A stretch of 23,682 nucleotides of DNA, taken from IMG/VR virus record IMGVR_UViG_3300001533_000636, positions 1-23,682 of that record, one strand, 5' to 3'. The notes beneath the pieces are model-generated. The model did not search any database and was not told where the DNA came from. It saw only the letters and a list, made by a program, of their open reading frames with translations. Shown one piece after another: positions 13,574 to 23,682 of the stretch. This DNA comes from a virus. Position 1 is the first letter of the stretch. Each line of letters begins with the position of its first letter. A program made the position numbers and the translations under genes.

Positions 13574-13639
13574 AAAAAACGCCACTCGCTCCCTTTGCCT
13601 AACGTAAGCAGTAGAAGTAAATGGCGTTTTAGCTAAAAC
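13574..13639 (-). promoter_or_regulatory. Attenuator-like terminator hairpin and competing palindrome in the structural-operon leader
   Basis: On the minus strand AAAACGCCA (13630-13622) pairs perfectly with TGGCGTTTT (13584-13576), which ends in a run of six T (13579-13574), as in an intrinsic terminator with a long loop. Inside the loop GCTTA-CGT-TAGGC can form a small second hairpin. Immediately upstream, the perfect palindrome GTTTTAGCTAAAAC (13639-13626) shares the first arm of the terminator, so the two folds exclude each other. This lies between the promoter and the terS start. It suggests conditional read-through into the virion genes. Confidence 0.6.
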
Positions 13640-13677
13640 TTAAGAACCACTGAGGTCATGACTCCCAGCGTGGTAAT

Positions 13678-13735
13678 ATCTAGGTAGTAAGTTCAATTTT
13701 CCACTTTGGTAAAGTTTCAATTTACTACCATAGAT
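13678..13735. repeat. Inverted repeat at the start of the structural-operon transcript
   Basis: ATCTAGGTAGTAA (13678-13690) and TTACTACCATAGAT (13722-13735) are inverted copies differing by one inserted base. Between them ACTTT-GGT-AAAGT (13703-13715) forms an inner hairpin. The outer repeat begins about 10 nt downstream of the predicted transcription start, so it could be an operator for a dimeric regulator or a structured leader RNA. Confidence 0.65.
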
Positions 13736-13752
13736 ATAAAAATTCTAGTTAG

Positions 13753-13781
13753 AGTATACCATATACTTTCAACTTTGTCAA
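13753..13781 (-). promoter_or_regulatory. Sigma70 promoter for the leftward virion operon
   Basis: Reading the minus strand: TTGACA (13781-13776), 17 bp, TATACT (13758-13753), with TGG before the -10 (extended -10). The predicted start is near 13746, giving a leader of about 220 nt before terS. The sequence class is the same as the two rightward promoters. Confidence 0.8.
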
Positions 13782-13789
13782 GGGCGCAA

Positions 13790-14210
13790 GTTCAAATATA
13801 TCTGACTATTTTATTCTTAATTTTAAGGGCGTAAAGGGGTATAGGGGGCGTTTTCTTCCTATATATGGGGCGGTGTACTTTGGGCGGTTAAAAGGGCAAA
13901 AGGGGGGCAAGGGCACATAAATTCAAGGGGTATATATAAGGGGCGCATAAGCGGTTAAGGGCGTTAAGAGTGCCCAAAAGTTAGTTATAAAAATTTGGGG
14001 GCTAGAAAAAAACAGGTGTTTATGTAATATTAAAACAGCCTTGGGGGGTGTATAGGGTGTTTTTTATAATGCTAGGGGTGTAAAGGTTTTTTATTCCAAG
14101 GCCACAAATTCAAGGCGTAAATTCAAGGGCGTAAATTCAAGGCGCGCGCCAAGTCTACGCCAAAGTGAAGGAGCCAAAGTCAAGGCCTAAAAACATATTT
14201 AATAAAAGAC
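13790..14210. other. G-rich, C-poor non-coding region with AAATTCAAGG repeats (candidate origin part)
   Basis: About 420 bp between the divergent promoters with no supportable gene. The plus strand is full of GGGG and GGGCG tracts and poor in C, a strong strand bias unlike the genes around it. Three tandem repeats of AAATTCAAGG(G)CG lie at 14106-14144 with a 13-14 bp period, a fourth copy at 13919-13928 and a fifth, downstream, at 14885-14894. Iteron-like repeats beside skewed DNA suggest a replication origin or a regulatory array, but no replication gene is visible nearby. Confidence 0.5.
14106..14144 (+). repeat. Three tandem copies of AAATTCAAGG(G)CG
   Basis: Copies start at 14106, 14119 and 14133, separated by one T or GT; the middle copy has an extra G. 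The AAATTCAA core recurs throughout the non-coding DNA of this window and forms one arm of the gene-boundary palindromes. Confidence 0.75.
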
Positions 14211-14239
14211 TTGACAAGTATATAATATTATGATATACT
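14211..14239 (+). promoter_or_regulatory. Rightward sigma70 promoter P1
   Basis: TTGACA (14211-14216), 17 bp, TATACT (14234-14239), with TGA before the -10. It drives the single small gene at 14303. The TTATGATATACTTA around the -10 is identical to that of promoter P2. Confidence 0.8.
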
Positions 14240-14261
14240 TAACATAGTAATAAACTGTTCA

Positions 14262-14276
14262 TTGACATATACTGGG
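14262..14276 (+). repeat. Left arm of inverted repeat flanking the 112-residue gene
   Basis: TTGACATATACTGGG, with AAGCGTA a few bases further in. An inverted copy, TTGACATATACTAGG on the minus strand, lies at 14696-14682, also followed by AAGCGTA. The pair brackets the gene at 14303-14641. Confidence 0.6.
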
Positions 14277-14302
14277 TAAAAGCGTAAAGCGAGGTAGTAA
14301 CT

Positions 14303-14810: not shown

Positions 14811-15184
14811 GTTCTTAATTTTTTTTCTTTTTTTTTTTATTACCAAACAATGCCACACACAAATTAGATTACTCATAAATGTATAAATTCAAGGCCATAA
14901 ATTTGGGGAAAACATTAACGCCCTTGTGGTAACTTAGGGGTATTTTTAACACAAGGCCATATATTTAATAGGGTTATATCAAAAATCCCTTGTGGAACTT
15001 GTGGCACTATATTGATACTCTTAACATATTTTATCATAAGTCCATATAAATAAAGGGGTATCAGTATGTTAGAAGTATAAAAAATTACCACAAAAACCCA
15101 ATTTTATGTGGCACTCATTGGTAATGTTTAGCGGTCAATTCAATTTATAAATTCAACTTGGTAATAGTTAAAAATGCGGAAAGT

Positions 15185-18021: not shown

Positions 18022-18208
18022 CTTAAATATTGTGGTTAAAATAATATCCCCCTCGGATAATATATATCAATGGAAAGCGGGGCTTAATGGGGGACTTGAA
18101 TTCTATGTATGGAAAGGGACTTACTGTCCCACAGAAGAATATGCCAAGGCGGATTGGGAAGCCTTTGCTTCAATTAATAACTTAAAGTGGGAGTGGGCAG
18201 TAGCATGA
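18002..18208 (+). CDS. Small hypothetical protein coupled to the radical SAM gene
   Basis: 68 residues with Trp/Tyr-rich beta pattern (YQWKAGLNGGLEFYVWKGTYC...). AAGGAG precedes ATGATG. Its stop overlaps the radical SAM start (ATGA). No family recognised; the coupling means it is co-translated with the enzyme and might be its partner, which is speculation. Confidence 0.6.
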   Translation: MMRKLTDLNIVVKIISPSDNIYQWKAGLNGGLEFYVWKGTYCPTEEYAKADWEAFASINNLKWEWAVA

Positions 18209-19278
18209 ATGGACAAGAAAAGTGGCGCTTTGACGGATGCAAGTTGCTTTGGCACATGGATAGGGTGCACCAATATTATAGGGATGGGAAGAGAATCGCC
18301 CCCATCCATATGGACATTGGGGCAACTAAGTTGTGTAATGCCAAATGCGTTTACTGTTATGGGATATATCAGGAGATGTCTAGGGACATTATACCTGCAG
18401 ATATTTTAATTAGGTTGCTCTCCGATGCCCCTCATCTGGGTGTTAAATCACTTACGATAACTGGGGATGGTGAACCTACATTAAACCCTGCTTTGTATGA
18501 TGCCGTTCAAGCTGGCTTTAAAGCGGGACTTGATATCGGGATTGCCACGAATGGGATTGCCCTAGACATCGCCAAACTTGCTATATTACTAGGCACCTGC
18601 ACATGGCTTCGCTTTAATCTCTCAGGGTATGGGGAAGAGGGTTATAAGTCCATACACGGCGTCCCTCAGTGGGAGCGTGTGCAGGCAAATATTCTCCTCG
18701 CCTCGGAACTTAAGAAGGAGTATGGGTATAAGTGTACCATTGGGCTTCAGATGGTGCTTATACCCTCCGCCTTGCCCCACGTAATACCCATATCCAAGTT
18801 TGCAATTAAGAATGGGATTGACTACTTTGTAATTAAGCAATATAGTGACCCAGGTTGCTCCCTTATGAGTCAGTTTAACTTGGACTGGTATAATAATACT
18901 GAGGTGCTTAATACATTGTATGAAGCGGAACAAATGAGCACAGGCGGAACTAAAATTGTACCTAAGTGGGGGATGATAAAGTCCATGGGCGTTAGGCCAT
19001 ATGACCATTGCATGGACTGCCCCCTTATTTTTCAAGTAAGTGGGAATTCCAAGTGTTACCCATGTGGCTACCTCTTTAATAATGAGGAGTATTGTTATGG
19101 CGACCTCAAGAAACAAACCTTACAAGAAATAATTACCTCAAAAAGATACTGGGATATAATTGACAAGATGGCGAAATTTGACGTACATAAGGATTGTCAT
19201 GGGAACTGTAGACATGACTTCACTAATGAGTTTATACACAATTATTTAAGAAAACCAGACCACATAAACTTTATATAA
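18205..19278 (+). CDS. Radical SAM / SPASM-domain enzyme
   Basis: 357 residues from the ATG at 18205, coupled to the previous stop. CNAKCVYC (Cys44, Cys48, Cys51) is the CX3CX2C site for the radical SAM 4Fe-4S cluster. GDGEPTLNP (residues 88-96) is the SAM-binding GGE-type motif, and IATNG (113-117) the next strand. The C-terminal Cys set (269, 272, 284, 287, 297, 331, 335) is a SPASM-type region that binds extra Fe-S clusters. SPASM enzymes commonly modify peptides or proteins, and related ones act on sugars or nucleosides. Neighbours are a GT9 transferase, a YkgJ-like protein and a TPP enzyme, so glycan or peptide modification is plausible. The substrate cannot be told. A GTG at 18187 is in frame but has weaker support. 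Confidence 0.88.
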   Translation: MNGQEKWRFDGCKLLWHMDRVHQYYRDGKRIAPIHMDIGATKLCNAKCVYCYGIYQEMSRDIIPADILIRLLSDAPHLGVKSLTITGDGEPTLNPALYDAVQAGFKAGLDIGIATNGIALDIAKLAILLGTCTWLRFNLSGYGEEGYKSIHGVPQWERVQANILLASELKKEYGYKCTIGLQMVLIPSALPHVIPISKFAIKNGIDYFVIKQYSDPGCSLMSQFNLDWYNNTEVLNTLYEAEQMSTGGTKIVPKWGMIKSMGVRPYDHCMDCPLIFQVSGNSKCYPCGYLFNNEEYCYGDLKKQTLQEIITSKRYWDIIDKMAKFDVHKDCHGNCRHDFTNEFIHNYLRKPDHINFI

Positions 19279-19282
19279 ATGG

Positions 19283-19375
19283 ATGCACCCCGAGCTTGTT
19301 CTCCTTAACTCCACTTGTTGTGGTTACCCTTGCCCAAGGGGGGCTTGGGGTGCGTTCTATAAATTCAATAATTGA
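19283..19375 (+). CDS. Possible 30-residue Cys-containing peptide after the radical SAM gene
   Basis: An ATG at 19283 opens 30 codons: MHPELVLLNST, then CCGYPCPRG and an aromatic end (GAFYKFNN). It lies 4 bp after the radical SAM stop, which could allow reinitiation, but no Shine-Dalgarno is present. A Cys-containing peptide beside a SPASM enzyme resembles a peptide-substrate arrangement. Alternatives: the CGYPCP phrase is a decayed remnant of another radical SAM start, or the ORF is chance inside the RNA fold at 19285-19353. Low confidence as a gene. Confidence 0.2.
   Translation: MHPELVLLNSTCCGYPCPRGAWGAFYKFNN
19285..19353 (+). ncRNA. Predicted three-way-junction RNA fold, unidentified
   Basis: GCACCCCGAGC (19285-19295) pairs with GCTTGGGGTGC (19343-19353) through 11 pairs with one G-U. 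Inside lie CCAC-TTGTT-GTGG (19311-19323) and CCCTT-GCCC-AAGGG (19327-19340). There is no T-run after it, so it is not a terminator. It has no tRNA T-loop or fitting arm lengths. It may be a structured intergenic RNA element; it overlaps the 30-codon ORF. Confidence 0.4.
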
Positions 19376-19376
19376 A
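19364..19376. repeat. Gene-boundary palindrome, copy 4
   Basis: TTCAA-TAA-TTGAA within TATAAATTCAATAATTGAAC, followed by TTATGA and the Shine-Dalgarno of the GT9 gene. Confidence 0.6.
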
Positions 19377-19399
19377 CTTATGACCAAGGAAGGTGACGG

Positions 19400-20329
19400 A
19401 TGAAACGGAAGAAGGTACTTATAATAAAATTGGGTCATTCGGAAACACTATGCCCAGAGATAAGTAGAACCTGCTCACTTGGTGATGTCCTCAGGTCTAC
19501 AGTTATCCTAAATTACTTGAAAGAACATGAGGTAACTTGGCTTGTGGATGAAATGGCCATTCCCCTCCTACTTGATAACCCACATATTAACCGCATTCTC
19601 CCCTGGAACTTTGAAACCTCCCTCCAGTTATGTCATGAGCATTTCGACTGGGTCATTAATTTGGAGAAGGGCGCGGGGATTTGCGCCTTGGTGGAAGGGA
19701 TGAACGTGTGGCAAAGGTCGGGCTTCCGTTTCAACCACACTACTGGAACCGCAGATGCCCACGTGGATACAGAACGGATACTCGCACTTACCTTGAATAA
19801 GAAGGATAATCATAAGGTGTGGCAGGAATACTTAGCCCAGTTAATTAGGAAGAAATGGAAACATAATCACCGATATATAATTCCAAAAAGGAGAGTGGCG
19901 TGTGAAAACAAGATTGGACTTAACTTCAAGGTGGGTACAAAATGGGCAAATAAAGGGTGGCCAATCGGACATTGGCATGAGCTCGCACAAGTCCTTGAAA
20001 ATAAAAAATATAAAGTATCCTGGCAAGAAGGGTTCGACTCTCTTAATAAGTATATGGACTGGGTTGCTTCTTGCAGTTACATTATTACCACTGATAGTCT
20101 TGGCTTACATTTGGCTCTCGGTTTTGGTAAACGGGTGATTGGGATATTCGGGCCTTCCCCGTGGAAGGAAGTTTATATGTATGGGCTTGGGGAAATAATT
20201 ACCCCACCATCTCAAATAAAGTGCGCCCCATGTTTTATGGATTCTTGTGAGCGTAATAATGAATGTATGTATAATATATCCCCAAGTAAAGTGCTTAAAA
20301 AAGTGGAGGAGTTATGGCCAAGAAAATAA
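19400..20329 (+). CDS. Glycosyltransferase family 9 (ADP-heptosyltransferase-like)
   Basis: 309 residues, the usual GT9 length. The N-terminal domain has VLIIKLGHSETL and SLGDVLRSTVIL (residues 6-37), the GT9 nucleotide-fold start. The C-terminal domain has IGLNFKVGTKWANKGWPIGHWHELAQVLE (residues 172-200) and IITTDSLGLHLALGFGKRVIGIFGPS (228-253), the two hallmark GT9 phrases around the donor site. Cysteines near the end (275, 278, 283, 289) match the CxxC...C tail found in many members. It would transfer a sugar, by family typically ADP-heptose onto lipopolysaccharide core, though other donors occur. GGAAGGTGA precedes the ATG. Phage GT9 enzymes may change host surface sugars or decorate the virion. 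Confidence 0.85.
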   Translation: MKRKKVLIIKLGHSETLCPEISRTCSLGDVLRSTVILNYLKEHEVTWLVDEMAIPLLLDNPHINRILPWNFETSLQLCHEHFDWVINLEKGAGICALVEGMNVWQRSGFRFNHTTGTADAHVDTERILALTLNKKDNHKVWQEYLAQLIRKKWKHNHRYIIPKRRVACENKIGLNFKVGTKWANKGWPIGHWHELAQVLENKKYKVSWQEGFDSLNKYMDWVASCSYIITTDSLGLHLALGFGKRVIGIFGPSPWKEVYMYGLGEIITPPSQIKCAPCFMDSCERNNECMYNISPSKVLKKVEELWPRK

Positions 20330-20589
20330 TATGTAAGAGGTGTGGGGATTGTTGTCATACCCAATTTGAACTATTTCTCCTAAACCTACCCGATATGCAA
20401 CAAACACGTACTCTTATTAGGGATGCGGTTGAGAAGGGATTCAAGCTTAAATTTAAATCGGTTGAGGATATAAGTGTTACTGTGTATGGGGAATGTAAAT
20501 ATTATGATAAGAAAGATAAGAAATGCCTAAGTTATAAAAAGAGGCCAGAGAGGTGTCAGTTGTATTATTGTGGGAGGTATACTGAATGA
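20314..20589 (+). CDS. YkgJ-like Cys-cluster protein
   Basis: 91 residues. The N-terminal CKRCGDCC (Cys7, 10, 13, 14) with later Cys61, 71, 81 and 86 in the pattern GECKYYDKKDKKCLSYKKRPERCQLYYC matches the YkgJ / UPF0153 zinc- or iron-chelating family (CxxCxxCC ... C...RP..C). The biochemical role of the family is not known. It overlaps the GT9 gene by 16 bp and the next gene by 4 bp (ATGA), with GGAGG before the ATG, so it is part of the same unit. It might load or protect the Fe-S clusters of the radical SAM enzyme; that is inference. Confidence 0.8.
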   Translation: MAKKIICKRCGDCCHTQFELFLLNLPDMQQTRTLIRDAVEKGFKLKFKSVEDISVTVYGECKYYDKKDKKCLSYKKRPERCQLYYCGRYTE

Positions 20590-21212
20590 AAAGGAAATAT
20601 ACGAAGGAAGAGTTGATTAAGTTTGAGCATTATATTTCCAACTTATTTGAGCTTGGTAAAATAAATGTCCCAATCCATTTAAGTGGTGGGAATGAAGAAG
20701 CCTTAATAACAATATTCAAGGGGGTACAAGATGCAGATTATGTATTTTCTGGCCATCGTAATCATTATCATTACTTGCTTAAAGGCGGAAGCCCTCATAA
20801 ACTTGTTGAAGAACTTCTGGGTAGTAAGGGGGGAGTTAACCACGGAGCAGGTAGAAGTATGCATATATTTGAACCGAGGATTAATTTTTATACAAGTGGC
20901 ATTGTCGGTGGCGTGTGCGCTCCTGCTGTTGGTGTGGGTCTTAGTTTAAAGAAACTTAAGTCAAAGGCTCACGTGTGGTGTTTTGTTGGGGATGGTGGGG
21001 AAGACACTGGCGCGTTTATGGAGGCAGTACGTTTCTCCGTTGCCCGTGTGCTTCCGATTACATTCGTGGTTGAGGATAATGACCTCGCGGTGGAATCAAG
21101 TAAAAAAGATAGATGGCATAATTACCCCATGTTCAACTCACCCAATATTCTGAGGTATGAATATAAAAGAGCGTGGCCTCATGTGGGAGTTGGGAAGCAT
21201 GTTAGTATGTAA
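20586..21212 (+). CDS. Short TPP-dependent dehydrogenase E1-alpha-like protein
   Basis: 208 residues. FSGHRNHYHYLLKGG (residues 54-68), GAGRSMHIFEP (87-97), YTSGIVGGVCAPAVGVGLS (102-120) and GDGGEDTGAFMEAVRFSVARVLPITFVVEDND (135-166) follow the order of E1-alpha subunits of pyruvate/2-oxo acid dehydrogenases; GDG with the later Asn is the thiamine diphosphate-binding motif. Family members are usually about 320-360 residues, so this one is about a third shorter, missing part of the N- and C-terminal regions, but it ends cleanly with YEYKRAWPHVGVGKHVSM, not in a frameshift. No E1-beta gene is in the window. It overlaps the preceding gene by 4 bp. It may act alone as a TPP-binding carboligase, or pair with a host subunit. 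Confidence 0.75.
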   Translation: MKRKYTKEELIKFEHYISNLFELGKINVPIHLSGGNEEALITIFKGVQDADYVFSGHRNHYHYLLKGGSPHKLVEELLGSKGGVNHGAGRSMHIFEPRINFYTSGIVGGVCAPAVGVGLSLKKLKSKAHVWCFVGDGGEDTGAFMEAVRFSVARVLPITFVVEDNDLAVESSKKDRWHNYPMFNSPNILRYEYKRAWPHVGVGKHVSM

Positions 21213-21227
21213 ACTGGGAGGCACACA

Positions 21228-21719
21228 ATGAATGAAGACTTGAAATGGGCGATAGGCATTAGCAAGGCAACCGCAGAAGAAAACCTCTGCTCTGTTTGTT
21301 TACAGCGAGGGGCATTAGACGCAGAAGATGTGGGGGCATTACAACTCCTCATCACAACAGCCGAACAAGTCCTTGAGGCAGGGGAAAATCTCCCTTACCA
21401 AGACACGGGTAATCCTGCGAGGGATAGTGAGCATAATAGCGTTGTAGACCTCTGCCTCCCTATCCACGCTAAAGTTAAACAAGAACTTGCCGAGCTAAAG
21501 GCGTTAATTGAGAGTGCTAAGGAGGAGTTGCCAGAGAAGAAAGAATACACAGATTTAGTGGGAATGATGACCTCTGACGATAAAATGGACAGGGTAATAG
21601 CTAATGATGTGTCGAGTGTAAGAACAGGTTATGATATGTGCAGGGCTATCTGCCTACCCATACTGGCTAAAAAGAATTTGAGGATTAGGAAGTTGGAGGA
21701 AGAACTTTCAAGAATGTAA
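21228..21719 (+). CDS. Helical hypothetical protein with Cys pair
   Basis: 163 residues, largely alpha-helical with a long charged coil (residues about 80-105, KVKQELAELKALIESAKEEL) and another at the C-terminus (KKNLRIRKLEEELSRM). The N-terminus has CSVC (residues 21-24). GGGAGG precedes the ATG. No family recognised. It marks the start of the block of small genes carrying the MSQD cassette. Confidence 0.65.
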   Translation: MNEDLKWAIGISKATAEENLCSVCLQRGALDAEDVGALQLLITTAEQVLEAGENLPYQDTGNPARDSEHNSVVDLCLPIHAKVKQELAELKALIESAKEELPEKKEYTDLVGMMTSDDKMDRVIANDVSSVRTGYDMCRAICLPILAKKNLRIRKLEEELSRM

Positions 21720-21728
21720 GGAGGTCAA

Positions 21729-21971
21729 ATGAGCCAAGAGATTAAAAGAGAATACATAATGCGATACGGCGGTGGCTCTACTGCTGAAGATATGTGGTAT
21801 GACGAAGAAGTTATTGTTGTTAAAGAAGGCGATGTCTGTCCTGAATGCGGTAAGGGTAAAATGAAGGTCAGCAAGAACAAAAAACTATATTGTTCTGAAA
21901 TATGTTGGGAGGAACACTATGAGCCAAGACAGTACAACACCTATAGAAGATTATATGGTAAAGGACTATGA
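21729..21971 (+). CDS. Small zinc-knuckle protein, MSQE start
   Basis: 80 residues starting MSQEIKREYI. CPECGKGKMKVSKNKKLYCSEIC (Cys37, 40, 55, 59) is a zinc ribbon. AAGGAGG precedes the ATG, which opens the shared cassette ATGAGCCAAGA. The last residues (YEPRQYNT...) are encoded by the next cassette copy in another frame, so this gene overlaps its neighbour by 53 bp. Confidence 0.7.
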   Translation: MSQEIKREYIMRYGGGSTAEDMWYDEEVIVVKEGDVCPECGKGKMKVSKNKKLYCSEICWEEHYEPRQYNTYRRLYGKGL

Positions 21972-22164
21972 AATAGGCAATCAAATAAACTGCGATGTTT
22001 GCGGTGGGTATTGGCAGAAGGGGTTTGCTACTGAAAGTTCTTGGGGGTTTGGTGAGGTTTCTATTTGTTCCAAGTGTATACCGAAGTTTATGAAGTGGGC
22101 GATAGAGAAATATAAGCAGGAGGTTCCAAATGAGCCAAGAAGCATTGATATACATACTGATTAG
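21919..22164 (+). CDS. Small zinc-knuckle protein, MSQD start
   Basis: 81 residues starting MSQDSTTPIEDY. Cys25, Cys28, Cys50 and Cys53 form two CxxC knuckles (CDVC and CSKC). GGGAGG precedes the cassette ATG by 6 bp. The C-terminal NEPRS is again the next cassette read in another frame. Function unknown. Confidence 0.7.
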   Translation: MSQDSTTPIEDYMVKDYEIGNQINCDVCGGYWQKGFATESSWGFGEVSICSKCIPKFMKWAIEKYKQEVPNEPRSIDIHTD

Positions 22165-22390
22165 CATAACCACAGGCGGTTTCTGGAGTTTCTTTTTATT
22201 TTGGTGTTTGTGGTTTTCCAATCCTAAATGCAAACATATTAACAAAGAGAAACTGAACCTCGGAGTTATAGACAATACGATAAACGTGAAGTTTAACGAA
22301 ACAGACATTCCCACAACTTATTTGTGCAATAGGTTTGAAGTGTATCTATGTCACGAATGCGGGTGTGTGGTGTTTAAGGAGGAACTATGA
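22130..22390 (+). CDS. Small membrane protein with Cys motif, MSQE start
   Basis: 86 residues: MSQE followed at once by a transmembrane helix (LIYILISITTGGFWSFFLFW, extending to about residue 29), then a soluble domain with CKH and CHECGC (residues 34-36 and 74-79), which could bind metal. AGGAGGTTCCAA precedes the ATG; the same spacer recurs before the gene at 23542. The membrane helix begins straight after the tag, so the tag would be at the extreme end facing one side of the membrane. Confidence 0.7.
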   Translation: MSQEALIYILISITTGGFWSFFLFWCLWFSNPKCKHINKEKLNLGVIDNTINVKFNETDIPTTYLCNRFEVYLCHECGCVVFKEEL

Positions 22391-22725
22391 GCCAAGACAA
22401 GAGTAAATACCGAAAGAAACCAGTAGTGATTGATGCTATTTTATGGACAGGGAAAAACTTTGAAGAATGTTCTAATTTTATTACTGATAAAAACTATAGA
22501 AGAATAGACAGACTTACTGGAAAATTAAGAATTAAGACACTTGAGGGAACAATGCTTGCAGATGTAGGTGATTATATTATCAAAGGCGTTAAGGGCGAGT
22601 TCTATCCTTGCAAGCCCGATATATTTGAGATGACATACGAACCTGCTGATACTCCTGCCGACTGCGAGGGTGAGAAGGGAGGGCAAATGAGCCAAGACAA
22701 GGAGAGCAGATATGATAACAGGTAA
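22387..22725 (+). CDS. PGDYG-type phage protein with MSQD extension
   Basis: 112 residues. YRKKPVVIDAILWTG (residues 8-22) and LRIKTLEGTMLADVGDYIIKGVKGEFYPCKPDIFEMTY (residues 47-84) match a small protein common in phages that normally begins with (M)KYRKKPVVIEA and carries the GDYI(I/V)-G core. Here MSQDKS precedes the family start, showing the shared cassette has been joined to it. The frame ends GGQMSQDKESRYDNR: it reads through a second cassette (start at 22687 with its own Shine-Dalgarno) before stopping. The role of the family is not known to me. Confidence 0.75.
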   Translation: MSQDKSKYRKKPVVIDAILWTGKNFEECSNFITDKNYRRIDRLTGKLRIKTLEGTMLADVGDYIIKGVKGEFYPCKPDIFEMTYEPADTPADCEGEKGGQMSQDKESRYDNR

Positions 22726-22765
22726 AAAACAAAAGGGGTCAGGGTCGAGGTCGTGGTCTTATTAA
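22712..22765 (+). CDS. Possible 17-residue peptide
   Basis: ATG at 22712 with AAGGAG 8 bp upstream; MITGKKQKGSGSRSWSY then stop. It is small, basic and Ser/Gly-rich, and follows the truncated cassette copy at 22687. It may be the decayed start of a former gene. Weak support. Confidence 0.25.
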   Translation: MITGKKQKGSGSRSWSY

Positions 22766-22791
22766 ACCAAAAACAAAAAGGAGAAACCAAA

Positions 22792-22818
22792 ATGAAAGTA
22801 TTAAAGGAGGAGAAATGA
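22792..22818 (+). CDS. Eight-residue leader ORF before the methyltransferase
   Basis: ATG at 22792 with AAGGAG 8 bp upstream; MKVLKEEK, whose stop overlaps the methyltransferase ATG (ATGA). The Shine-Dalgarno of the methyltransferase lies within it, so translation of the leader could couple to the enzyme. Weak but tidy. Confidence 0.3.
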   Translation: MKVLKEEK

Positions 22819-23303
22819 ACCCAAAAGAGACTAACCTTAAGCTTATCAATACAAATCTTCGAAGATACACATTTGAATCCCCGAAAATAAAAAATTGGGT
22901 AGAATCTGTTTGTGGGGGAAAGGTATTAAATTTATTTGCTGGGAAAACTTTCTTGAATTTAGATGAGTTTAGGGTAGATATTGACACTTCAGCATTTGCT
23001 CACATTCATATTGATGCATATTCTTATATTAGTAATTGCGATAAAAGATATGATACTGTTATTCTTGACCCGCCTTATGCATATAGAAAGGCTATGGAGA
23101 TGTATTGTGGGAATTACACAAGTAAGTTTAAGCTTATTGCAGATGAAATTAAAAGATTACAAATTCCAAAAGTTGTGTCTTTCGGATATCATTCTACTTT
23201 TATGGGGAAAGTTAGGGGGTACACATTGAGTGAACTTTGTGTTTTTGCTCACGGGGGAGCACAACATTGTACTATTGGGATTGTTGAATTGAAGGAGGTC
23301 TAA
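22815..23303 (+). CDS. DPPY-type DNA methyltransferase
   Basis: 162 residues. KVLNLFAGKT (residues 36-45) is the SAM-binding motif I in the form LFAG, and DTVILDPPYAYR (residues 80-91) is the catalytic DPPY motif IV of N6-adenine or N4-cytosine methyltransferases. GGNYTSKFKLI-like helices and VVSFGYHSTFMG follow. It is short (single domain, no visible target-recognition domain), so specificity may be loose or given by another protein. It may protect phage DNA from host restriction. AAAGGAGGAG precedes the ATG. Confidence 0.75.
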   Translation: MNPKETNLKLINTNLRRYTFESPKIKNWVESVCGGKVLNLFAGKTFLNLDEFRVDIDTSAFAHIHIDAYSYISNCDKRYDTVILDPPYAYRKAMEMYCGNYTSKFKLIADEIKRLQIPKVVSFGYHSTFMGKVRGYTLSELCVFAHGGAQHCTIGIVELKEV

Positions 23304-23545
23304 TGAGCCAAGACAAGATAAACGAGTGTCCTAAATGCGGTAATCTGTTACAGAAGGAGGGGTGTATAGTGTGTAAAATGAGCCAAGACAAGACTAAATA
23401 CCGAGAAGAAGCAGAGGGGTTGTTGGGTTTCGCTGGCTTAAAAGAGCGTGGTGGTTGGATACCTCTTGAAAAAGCCATCGAAATCCTCGCAAAAGTGTTG
23501 GAGGATAAATCCGACTGCGAGGGTGATAAGGGAGGTTCCAAATGA
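23303..23545 (+). CDS. Zinc-knuckle protein fused in frame to a second MSQD module
   Basis: 80 residues. Residues 1-25 are MSQDKINECPKCGNLL... with CPKC and CIVC (Cys9, 12, 21, 24), a complete zinc knuckle. At residue 26 a second MSQDK begins in frame and continues as TKYREEAEGLL...KAIEILAKVLEDKSDCEGDKGGSK, a paralogue of the next protein. GAAGGAGG before the first ATG is good; the internal ATG has only a distant GGAGG, so this is probably a fusion of two former genes. Confidence 0.65.
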   Translation: MSQDKINECPKCGNLLQKEGCIVCKMSQDKTKYREEAEGLLGFAGLKERGGWIPLEKAIEILAKVLEDKSDCEGDKGGSK

Positions 23546-23682
23546 GCCAAGACAAAAGTAAATACCGAGAAGAAGCGGAGAGGTTGTTACCTAAAAGCCC
23601 GTGGGACACCGAATCAGGAAACGAGTGGGTTCGTAATCGGGAAATAGGATTTACTTGTGCAAGAAACAAAGCCATCGAAGTC
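23542..23682 (+). CDS. MSQD-module protein, partial (runs off right edge)
   Basis: 47 residues visible, starting MSQDKSKYREEAERLLPKSP and ending RNKAIEV at the window edge. It is a paralogue of the second half of the preceding protein, with a divergent central insert. GGGAGGTTCCAA precedes the ATG. It is probably complete a short way beyond the window, by analogy with LAKVLEDKSDC in the preceding gene. Confidence 0.7.
   Translation, partial: MSQDKSKYREEAERLLPKSPWDTESGNEWVRNREIGFTCARNKAIEV

Follow-up and report, generated by a model that had tools for sequence, protein, structure and literature searches.

How do several neighbouring small genes of one phage, encoding proteins that look unlike one another, come to begin with the same stretch of nucleotides? 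The way in which phages gain and express new small genes is an open question, and the locus described here touches on it. The DNA analyzed (the window) spans 23,682 bases and makes up an entire IMG/VR record; it is a linear fragment of the genome of an uncultured phage. Its minus strand carries structural genes (small and large terminase, portal and major capsid) and its plus strand carries small accessory genes.

The repeated start and its array

The segment ATGAGCCAAGA occurs in eight exact copies on the plus strand (at 21729, 21919, 22130, 22387, 22687, 23303, 23378 and 23542), with no copy on either strand of the window outside 21,729-23,552. About 0.005 exact copies per strand would be expected by chance versus the eight seen, and 11-mers unrelated to ATGAGCCAAGA reach at most four copies in the window. 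A GGAGG is placed 4 or 6 nucleotides 5' of the ATG in seven copies; for the one at 23378 the closest GGAGG is too far upstream. An earlier note on this DNA had reported eight cassettes, usually with a Shine-Dalgarno sequence, and the count agrees. Since the array runs off the contig end, further copies are possible. No locus other than the window, in a set of 202 (1.8 Mb, window included), had more than three Shine-Dalgarno-led starts with the same 11-mer. Allowing mismatches and leaving out homologous bodies gave six alike starts in the window and no more than three in any of 262 other loci, figures that serve as a comparison and not as a random sample because the loci were partly chosen by motif or by one gene family. 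The cassettes and the genes around them are listed in Table 1.

Table 1. Start cassettes and associated genes of the array (window positions).
Feature	Position	Strand	Length	Description
Untagged gene upstream of array	21228..21719	+		ITTAEQVLEAG segment, also in L214 957-1178
Cassette 1	21720..21739	+		GGAGGTCAA-ATGAGCCAAGA; opens ORF 21729-21971
ORF 21729-21971			80 aa	Zinc-knuckle-like CPEC...CSEIC; separate gene from the one upstream
Cassette 2	21908..21931	+		GGAGGAACACT-ATGAGCCAAGAC; opens ORF 21919-22164
ORF 21919-22164			81 aa	CDVC...CSKC
Cassette 3	22119..22140	+		GGAGGTTCCAA-ATGAGCCAAGA; opens ORF 22130-22390
ORF 22130-22390			86 aa	Membrane ORF; N-terminal hydrophobic segment, then CHEC
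Cassette 4	22378..22413	+		GGAGGAACT-ATGAGCCAAGACAAGAGTAAATACCGA; opens PGDYG-type ORF 22387-22725
Cassette 5	22658..22701	+		25-nt repeat CCGACTGCGAGGGTGAGAAGGGAGG upstream (repeat family D6); in frame inside ORF 22387-22725
Methyltransferase-like gene	22815..23303	+		Inside array, without cassette; AAGGAGGAGAA-ATGAACCC; phrog_11619, E 4e-24
Cassette 6	23294..23318	+		GGAGGTCTA-ATGAGCCAAGACAAGA; opens ORF 23303-23545
ORF 23303-23545				Minimal zinc ribbon CPKCGNLLQKEGCIVC joined to charged domain
Cassette 7	23378..23404	+		ATGAGCCAAGACAAGACTAAATACCGA; in frame inside ORF 23303-23545; without close Shine-Dalgarno
Cassette 8	23511..23568	+		CCGACTGCGAGGGTGATAAGGGAGG-TTCCAA-ATGAGCCAAGACAAAAGTAAATACCGA; 25-nt repeat upstream (repeat families D2, D6); opens ORF 23542-end

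Upstream ORFs enter the cassette in all three phases. Two cassettes, at 22687 and 23378, form in-frame fusions, as the earlier note had placed them inside genes; the first of these opens just a 12-codon stub (MSQDKESRYDNR) and the second sits at the junction of zinc ribbon and charged family. At 22387 and 23542 the upstream gene stops at an ATGA overlap (with ORFs 22130-22390 and 23303-23545, respectively), and cassette 6 shows a TAATG overlap with ORF 22815-23303. At 21919 and 22130 the cassette is read in the frame xAT-GAG-CCA-AGA, as YEPRQ within ORF 21729-21971 and as NEPRS within ORF 21919-22164. The read-through described in the earlier note is thus real, but EPR is not C-terminal because more residues come after it. 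This use of all three phases is unlike a coupling device, which should favour one of them. The in-frame fusions and the stub look like deletion scars.

The short gap at 22726-22815, which follows the stub and holds an 8-codon minigene (MKVLKEEK) ahead of the methyltransferase-like gene, resembles what a lost gene would leave behind. Low RNA structure in the start region was rejected as a driver, the mean being -3.4 kcal/mol at the cassette starts versus -1.7 kcal/mol at those of other genes.

Two other regions of the window are recorded here. The intergenic stretch 13586-14300, between divergent gene blocks, contains many direct repeats resembling GGGCGTAAA or TAAATTCAAGG (the latter at 13918, 14118 and 14132, and again at 14884) and is possibly an origin or regulatory region. 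Positions 18187-21212 encode, in a row, a radical SAM/SPASM protein, a 309-aa ORF (19400-20329) that matched no PHROG, a protein rich in cysteine and one resembling E1 dehydrogenases, the last with a 38% relative in L129, a metabolic cluster unusual for a phage.

Downstream proteins and the added N-terminus

At least five of the downstream proteins have no detectable homology to each other. Once the tag was removed, an all-against-all comparison gave, paralogues apart, short or weak matches (E ~4e-4 or worse), the strongest of them (22387 versus 23378) taking in a shared ADCEG/SDCEG tail. The products of 23378 and 23542 are paralogues with MSQDK[TS]KYREEAE.LL in common, and 23378 makes up the latter half of ORF 23303. 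The eight unrelated genes of the earlier note are therefore reduced to several unlike bodies, together with this pair of paralogues, the half-gene and the stub at 22687.

Tandem duplication of one tagged gene, with divergence of the bodies and retention of the start, accounts for 23378 and 23542 and might extend to the zinc-knuckle ORFs, which may be distant paralogues. The three zinc proteins are too short for common descent to be excluded; their Pfam matches are below threshold. As an account of the whole array it is improbable. Bodies are homologous in the 23378/23542 pair and other matches are short or weak, so the array is not one paralogous gene family; the membrane and charged proteins are unlike the PGDYG-type protein and one another, and the latter has a known family of its own that is untagged elsewhere. 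Moreover, duplication would have to keep 11 nucleotides perfect, third codon positions included, while all other similarity was lost.

The PGDYG-type protein, which matches phrog_419 and phrog_1810, allows one of these starts to be compared with those of homologues. Eighty loci with homologues were fetched and a KYRKKP-like motif was located in 70; in 64 of the 70 the nearest start lies 1-2 residues before the motif. Gordonia phage DatBoi has MTTTPK before the motif and Microbacterium phage Pajaza has MSAD, neither of which is MSQD. As the start in homologues is almost invariably M(A)KYRKKP, the MSQDKS of the window protein is an added N-terminus, a 6-residue extension that almost no homologue has, and the earlier note was right on this point. 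Between 22387 and the charged family, identity stops at AAATACCGA, the KYR codons being native to both, and this is likely the joint at which the start segment met the PGDYG-type gene.

Codon usage bears on whether DNA or peptide was conserved. The Ser-Gln codons are AGC CAA in all eight copies, with no silent variation, and AGC represents 8.7% of this phage's Ser codons and 6% of those on the plus strand. For independent copies, eight identical Ser codons, whichever the codon, would arise with a probability of ~4e-4 and eight AGC CAA pairs with one of ~1e-11. Such invariance is expected from common descent or a nucleotide-level constraint and not from selection on the peptide; identity at the codon level points to DNA having been copied rather than peptide. 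The earlier note had raised the alternative that the peptide serves as a shared tag, with selection acting on MSQD/MSQE for sorting, stability or partner binding. At least six predicted products do begin with MSQ plus D or E, but the rare AGC is used throughout and the PGDYG-type homologues manage without MSQD.

The limits of the copied segment are not constant. Exact pairwise identity extends 0-11 nucleotides to the left of the ATG and 11-16 to the right, differing by pair, and therefore a site-specific mobile element or fixed-end insertion is not indicated; neither fixed ends nor target duplications were present at the cassettes. One cassette pair has an extra 25 nucleotides upstream in common, CCGACTGCGAGGGTGA-AAGGGAGG, at 96% identity, and the genes that end at this repeat differ, one being PGDYG-type and the other of the charged family.

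Start cassettes in other phages

An IMG/VR scan for a Shine-Dalgarno sequence plus ATGAGCCAAGA returned mostly chance singletons among the matches listed, and a scan of genomes from 85,000 species gave 39 matches with one exact copy each. L004 was considered as a second array and rejected, having two copies only, 68 nucleotides apart. A pattern coding for MSQDKSKYR gave no match. In phage and plasmid records no match was found for the array proteins 21228, 21729, 21919 and 23378, nor any convincing DNA match to the array; Rfam and tRNA scans found nothing. The sole backbone relative of the window, L128, does not extend over the array region, and no pair of genomes was seen that differed by the gain or loss of a unit.

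With a stricter cassette pattern eight viral contigs were matched and one was judged real. This contig, L214 (IMGVR_UViG_3300043030_000058), is a phage fragment of 7,630 bases whose terminase is unrelated by sequence to that of the window. It carries GGAGGTTCCAAATGAGCCAAGACAAGA before a gene different from the window's, with GAAGGAGGTTCCAAATGAGCCAAGACAAGATA preceding an unrelated 51-aa ORF. Positions 422-443 are 22 nucleotides identical to window cassette 3, and positions 422-455 are 94% identical to cassette 8 over 34 nucleotides (E 3e-6 among the loci compared). As in window ORF 21919-22164, the upstream gene reads through the cassette as EVPNEPR. Variant starts, MSKED, MSKEE and MSKDK (ATGAGCAAAGA), are found at 28, 585 and 824, MSKE and MSKD being common N-termini generally. 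The ITTAEQVLEAG segment of the untagged window gene lies inside this MSKE/MSQD array, giving the two arrays a further piece in common besides the cassette. The search across other phage contigs that the earlier note recommended thus found the cassette before other genes, in L214 as the sole other phage; as this contig was selected by the cassette pattern, the independent evidence in it consists of the variants lying within that kilobase and of the read-through tail found in both.

L214 also bears on two of the alternatives. Its codons 3 and 4 vary in amino acid (MSQD, MSKE, MSKD) with hardly any silent changes, so that the peptide itself is altered; the shared tag is not supported and selection on it is very improbable. 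As for false joins made by the assembler at short repeats near the contig end, the contig does end within the array and two ORFs contain in-frame fusions at cassettes, but the exact repeats are no longer than about 25 nucleotides, below the usual final assembly k-mers, and both the cassette and the read-through tail recur in L214, a separate contig. An artefact of this kind is extremely improbable.

A different repeated start, CACAGGAGGACAACT(C/G)ATGACTGA, was seen in L208, which had been fetched for its PGDYG-type gene. It consists of a Shine-Dalgarno sequence, spacer, ATG and first codons, and stands before many small genes. Its 24-nucleotide word is present in 15 viral contigs, that of L208 included, and starts with a looser form of the word fall into 16 clusters of small proteins. 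In the cultured Synechococcus phage S-SKS1, a 36-nucleotide stretch matches at 97%, at a start in a small-gene island. This second cassette differs in sequence from the MSQD cassette and is conserved mainly 5' of the ATG, which brings it nearer to the start-associated sequences discussed below. Its locations are L208 1980-5570, L257-L271 and S-SKS1 near 167-168 kb; at L208 4318-4638 a PGDYG-type gene is again found within an array of repeated starts.

A probable recombining gene-start module and known systems

We consider it probable that the ATGAGCCAAGA segment is a repeated gene-start module that spread by recombination through a fast-changing array of small accessory genes. The portable translation-start module proposed in the earlier note finds support in the PGDYG-type extension, the codon identity and the presence of the cassette in an unrelated phage. 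The module would comprise the Shine-Dalgarno sequence, the start codon and the first 3-9 codons, plus, in one pair, the last ~25 nucleotides of the preceding gene. Short homology between cassettes could allow whole gene units to be swapped or deleted; alternatively, an incoming gene could acquire the start segment by copying at a short stretch common to both, as probably occurred at 22387, where AAATACCGA corresponds to the KYR codons. A gene landing behind a cassette would be translated immediately. Exchange at short homologies is plausible since lambda Red recombines diverged DNA efficiently (PMC2327257); no annealing recombinase was recognised in the window. We infer both the recombination events and their selective benefit from the sequence. 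In this view the common MSQD/MSQE peptide most likely arises as a by-product.

If this reading is correct, a repeated start that supplies both recombination homology and a ready translation start would be a simple mechanism, and it would account for the odd shared N-termini, the read-through tails and the fusions met in phage annotations. Annotators should be aware that neighbouring phage genes can have an N-terminus in common without being homologous or carrying a functional signal. A wider idea, put forward tentatively and with less confidence, is that start cassettes might be a general phage device by which accessory genes are plugged in and out through annealing recombination, with lineage-specific sequences, the MSQD and cyanophage-type MTD cassettes being independent.

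In our literature search, which was incomplete in coverage, we came across no account of a start module in which shared codons are included. The statement in the earlier note that nothing of the kind had been described is nevertheless too strong, since Cluster K mycobacteriophages, TM4 among them, have close analogues in their start-associated sequences (SAS), found with extended forms (ESAS) at gene starts (PMC3203893), as do Cluster EF Microbacterium phages (PMC7302621). More distant likenesses are seen elsewhere. T4-like phages have promoter early stem-loop (PeSL) cassettes (Arbiol 2010, Comeau 2014, as cited in PMC4503421). These are also repeated and, according to that citing paper, are proposed as agents of gene shuffling in plastic regions; they carry an early promoter and a stem-loop, whereas the genes of the MSQD array overlap. 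Promoter-like sites in the array numbered 3 versus 6.5 in shuffles and terminator-like sites 2 versus 1.8, none of them recurring at the cassettes. In Cluster O mycobacteriophages short direct repeats flank genes absent from relatives, which fits gain and loss by recombination (PMC4351075), but these repeats are not described with a start codon and shared codons before many genes.

The likeness to SAS raises the alternative of a regulatory repeat, in which selection keeps the segment identical so that a phage or host factor (a protein, a small RNA or a ribosome feature) switches the genes together. SAS are kept across gene families in Clusters K and EF, where a regulatory role is suspected (PMC3203893, PMC7302621), and in the window all copies belong to one array on one strand, seven of the eight with a strong Shine-Dalgarno sequence. 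However, two copies lie within genes, one of them without a Shine-Dalgarno sequence, and 5' of the ATG just GGAGG is well conserved, full conservation being confined to the first 11 coding nucleotides. ESAS, a 17-bp imperfect inverted repeat, lies upstream of about half of the SAS sites, and no such inverted repeat pair tied to the cassettes was found in the window. Taken as a whole, a regulatory repeat of this kind appears unlikely.

Like SAS, the MSQD cassettes are short asymmetric repeats at the starts of different gene families in one genome, mostly in one orientation and over the ribosome site. The 13-nucleotide SAS (PMC3203893) lies upstream of the start codon and ends before it, and in 11 TM4 sites that we re-read the pre-start block is conserved with low information past the start codon. 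Of the SAS upstream block (consensus GGGATAGGAGCCC or GGGAAAGGACCCC) the window shares just GGAGG. The core of the MSQD cassette, in contrast, starts at the ATG and enters the coding sequence: conservation peaks from ATG to +11, with 2.0 bits at all 11 positions. SAS are also distributed genome-wide whereas the MSQD array is local. The best reading is of a recombining start module that is functionally like the SAS of Cluster K but reaches into the coding sequence.
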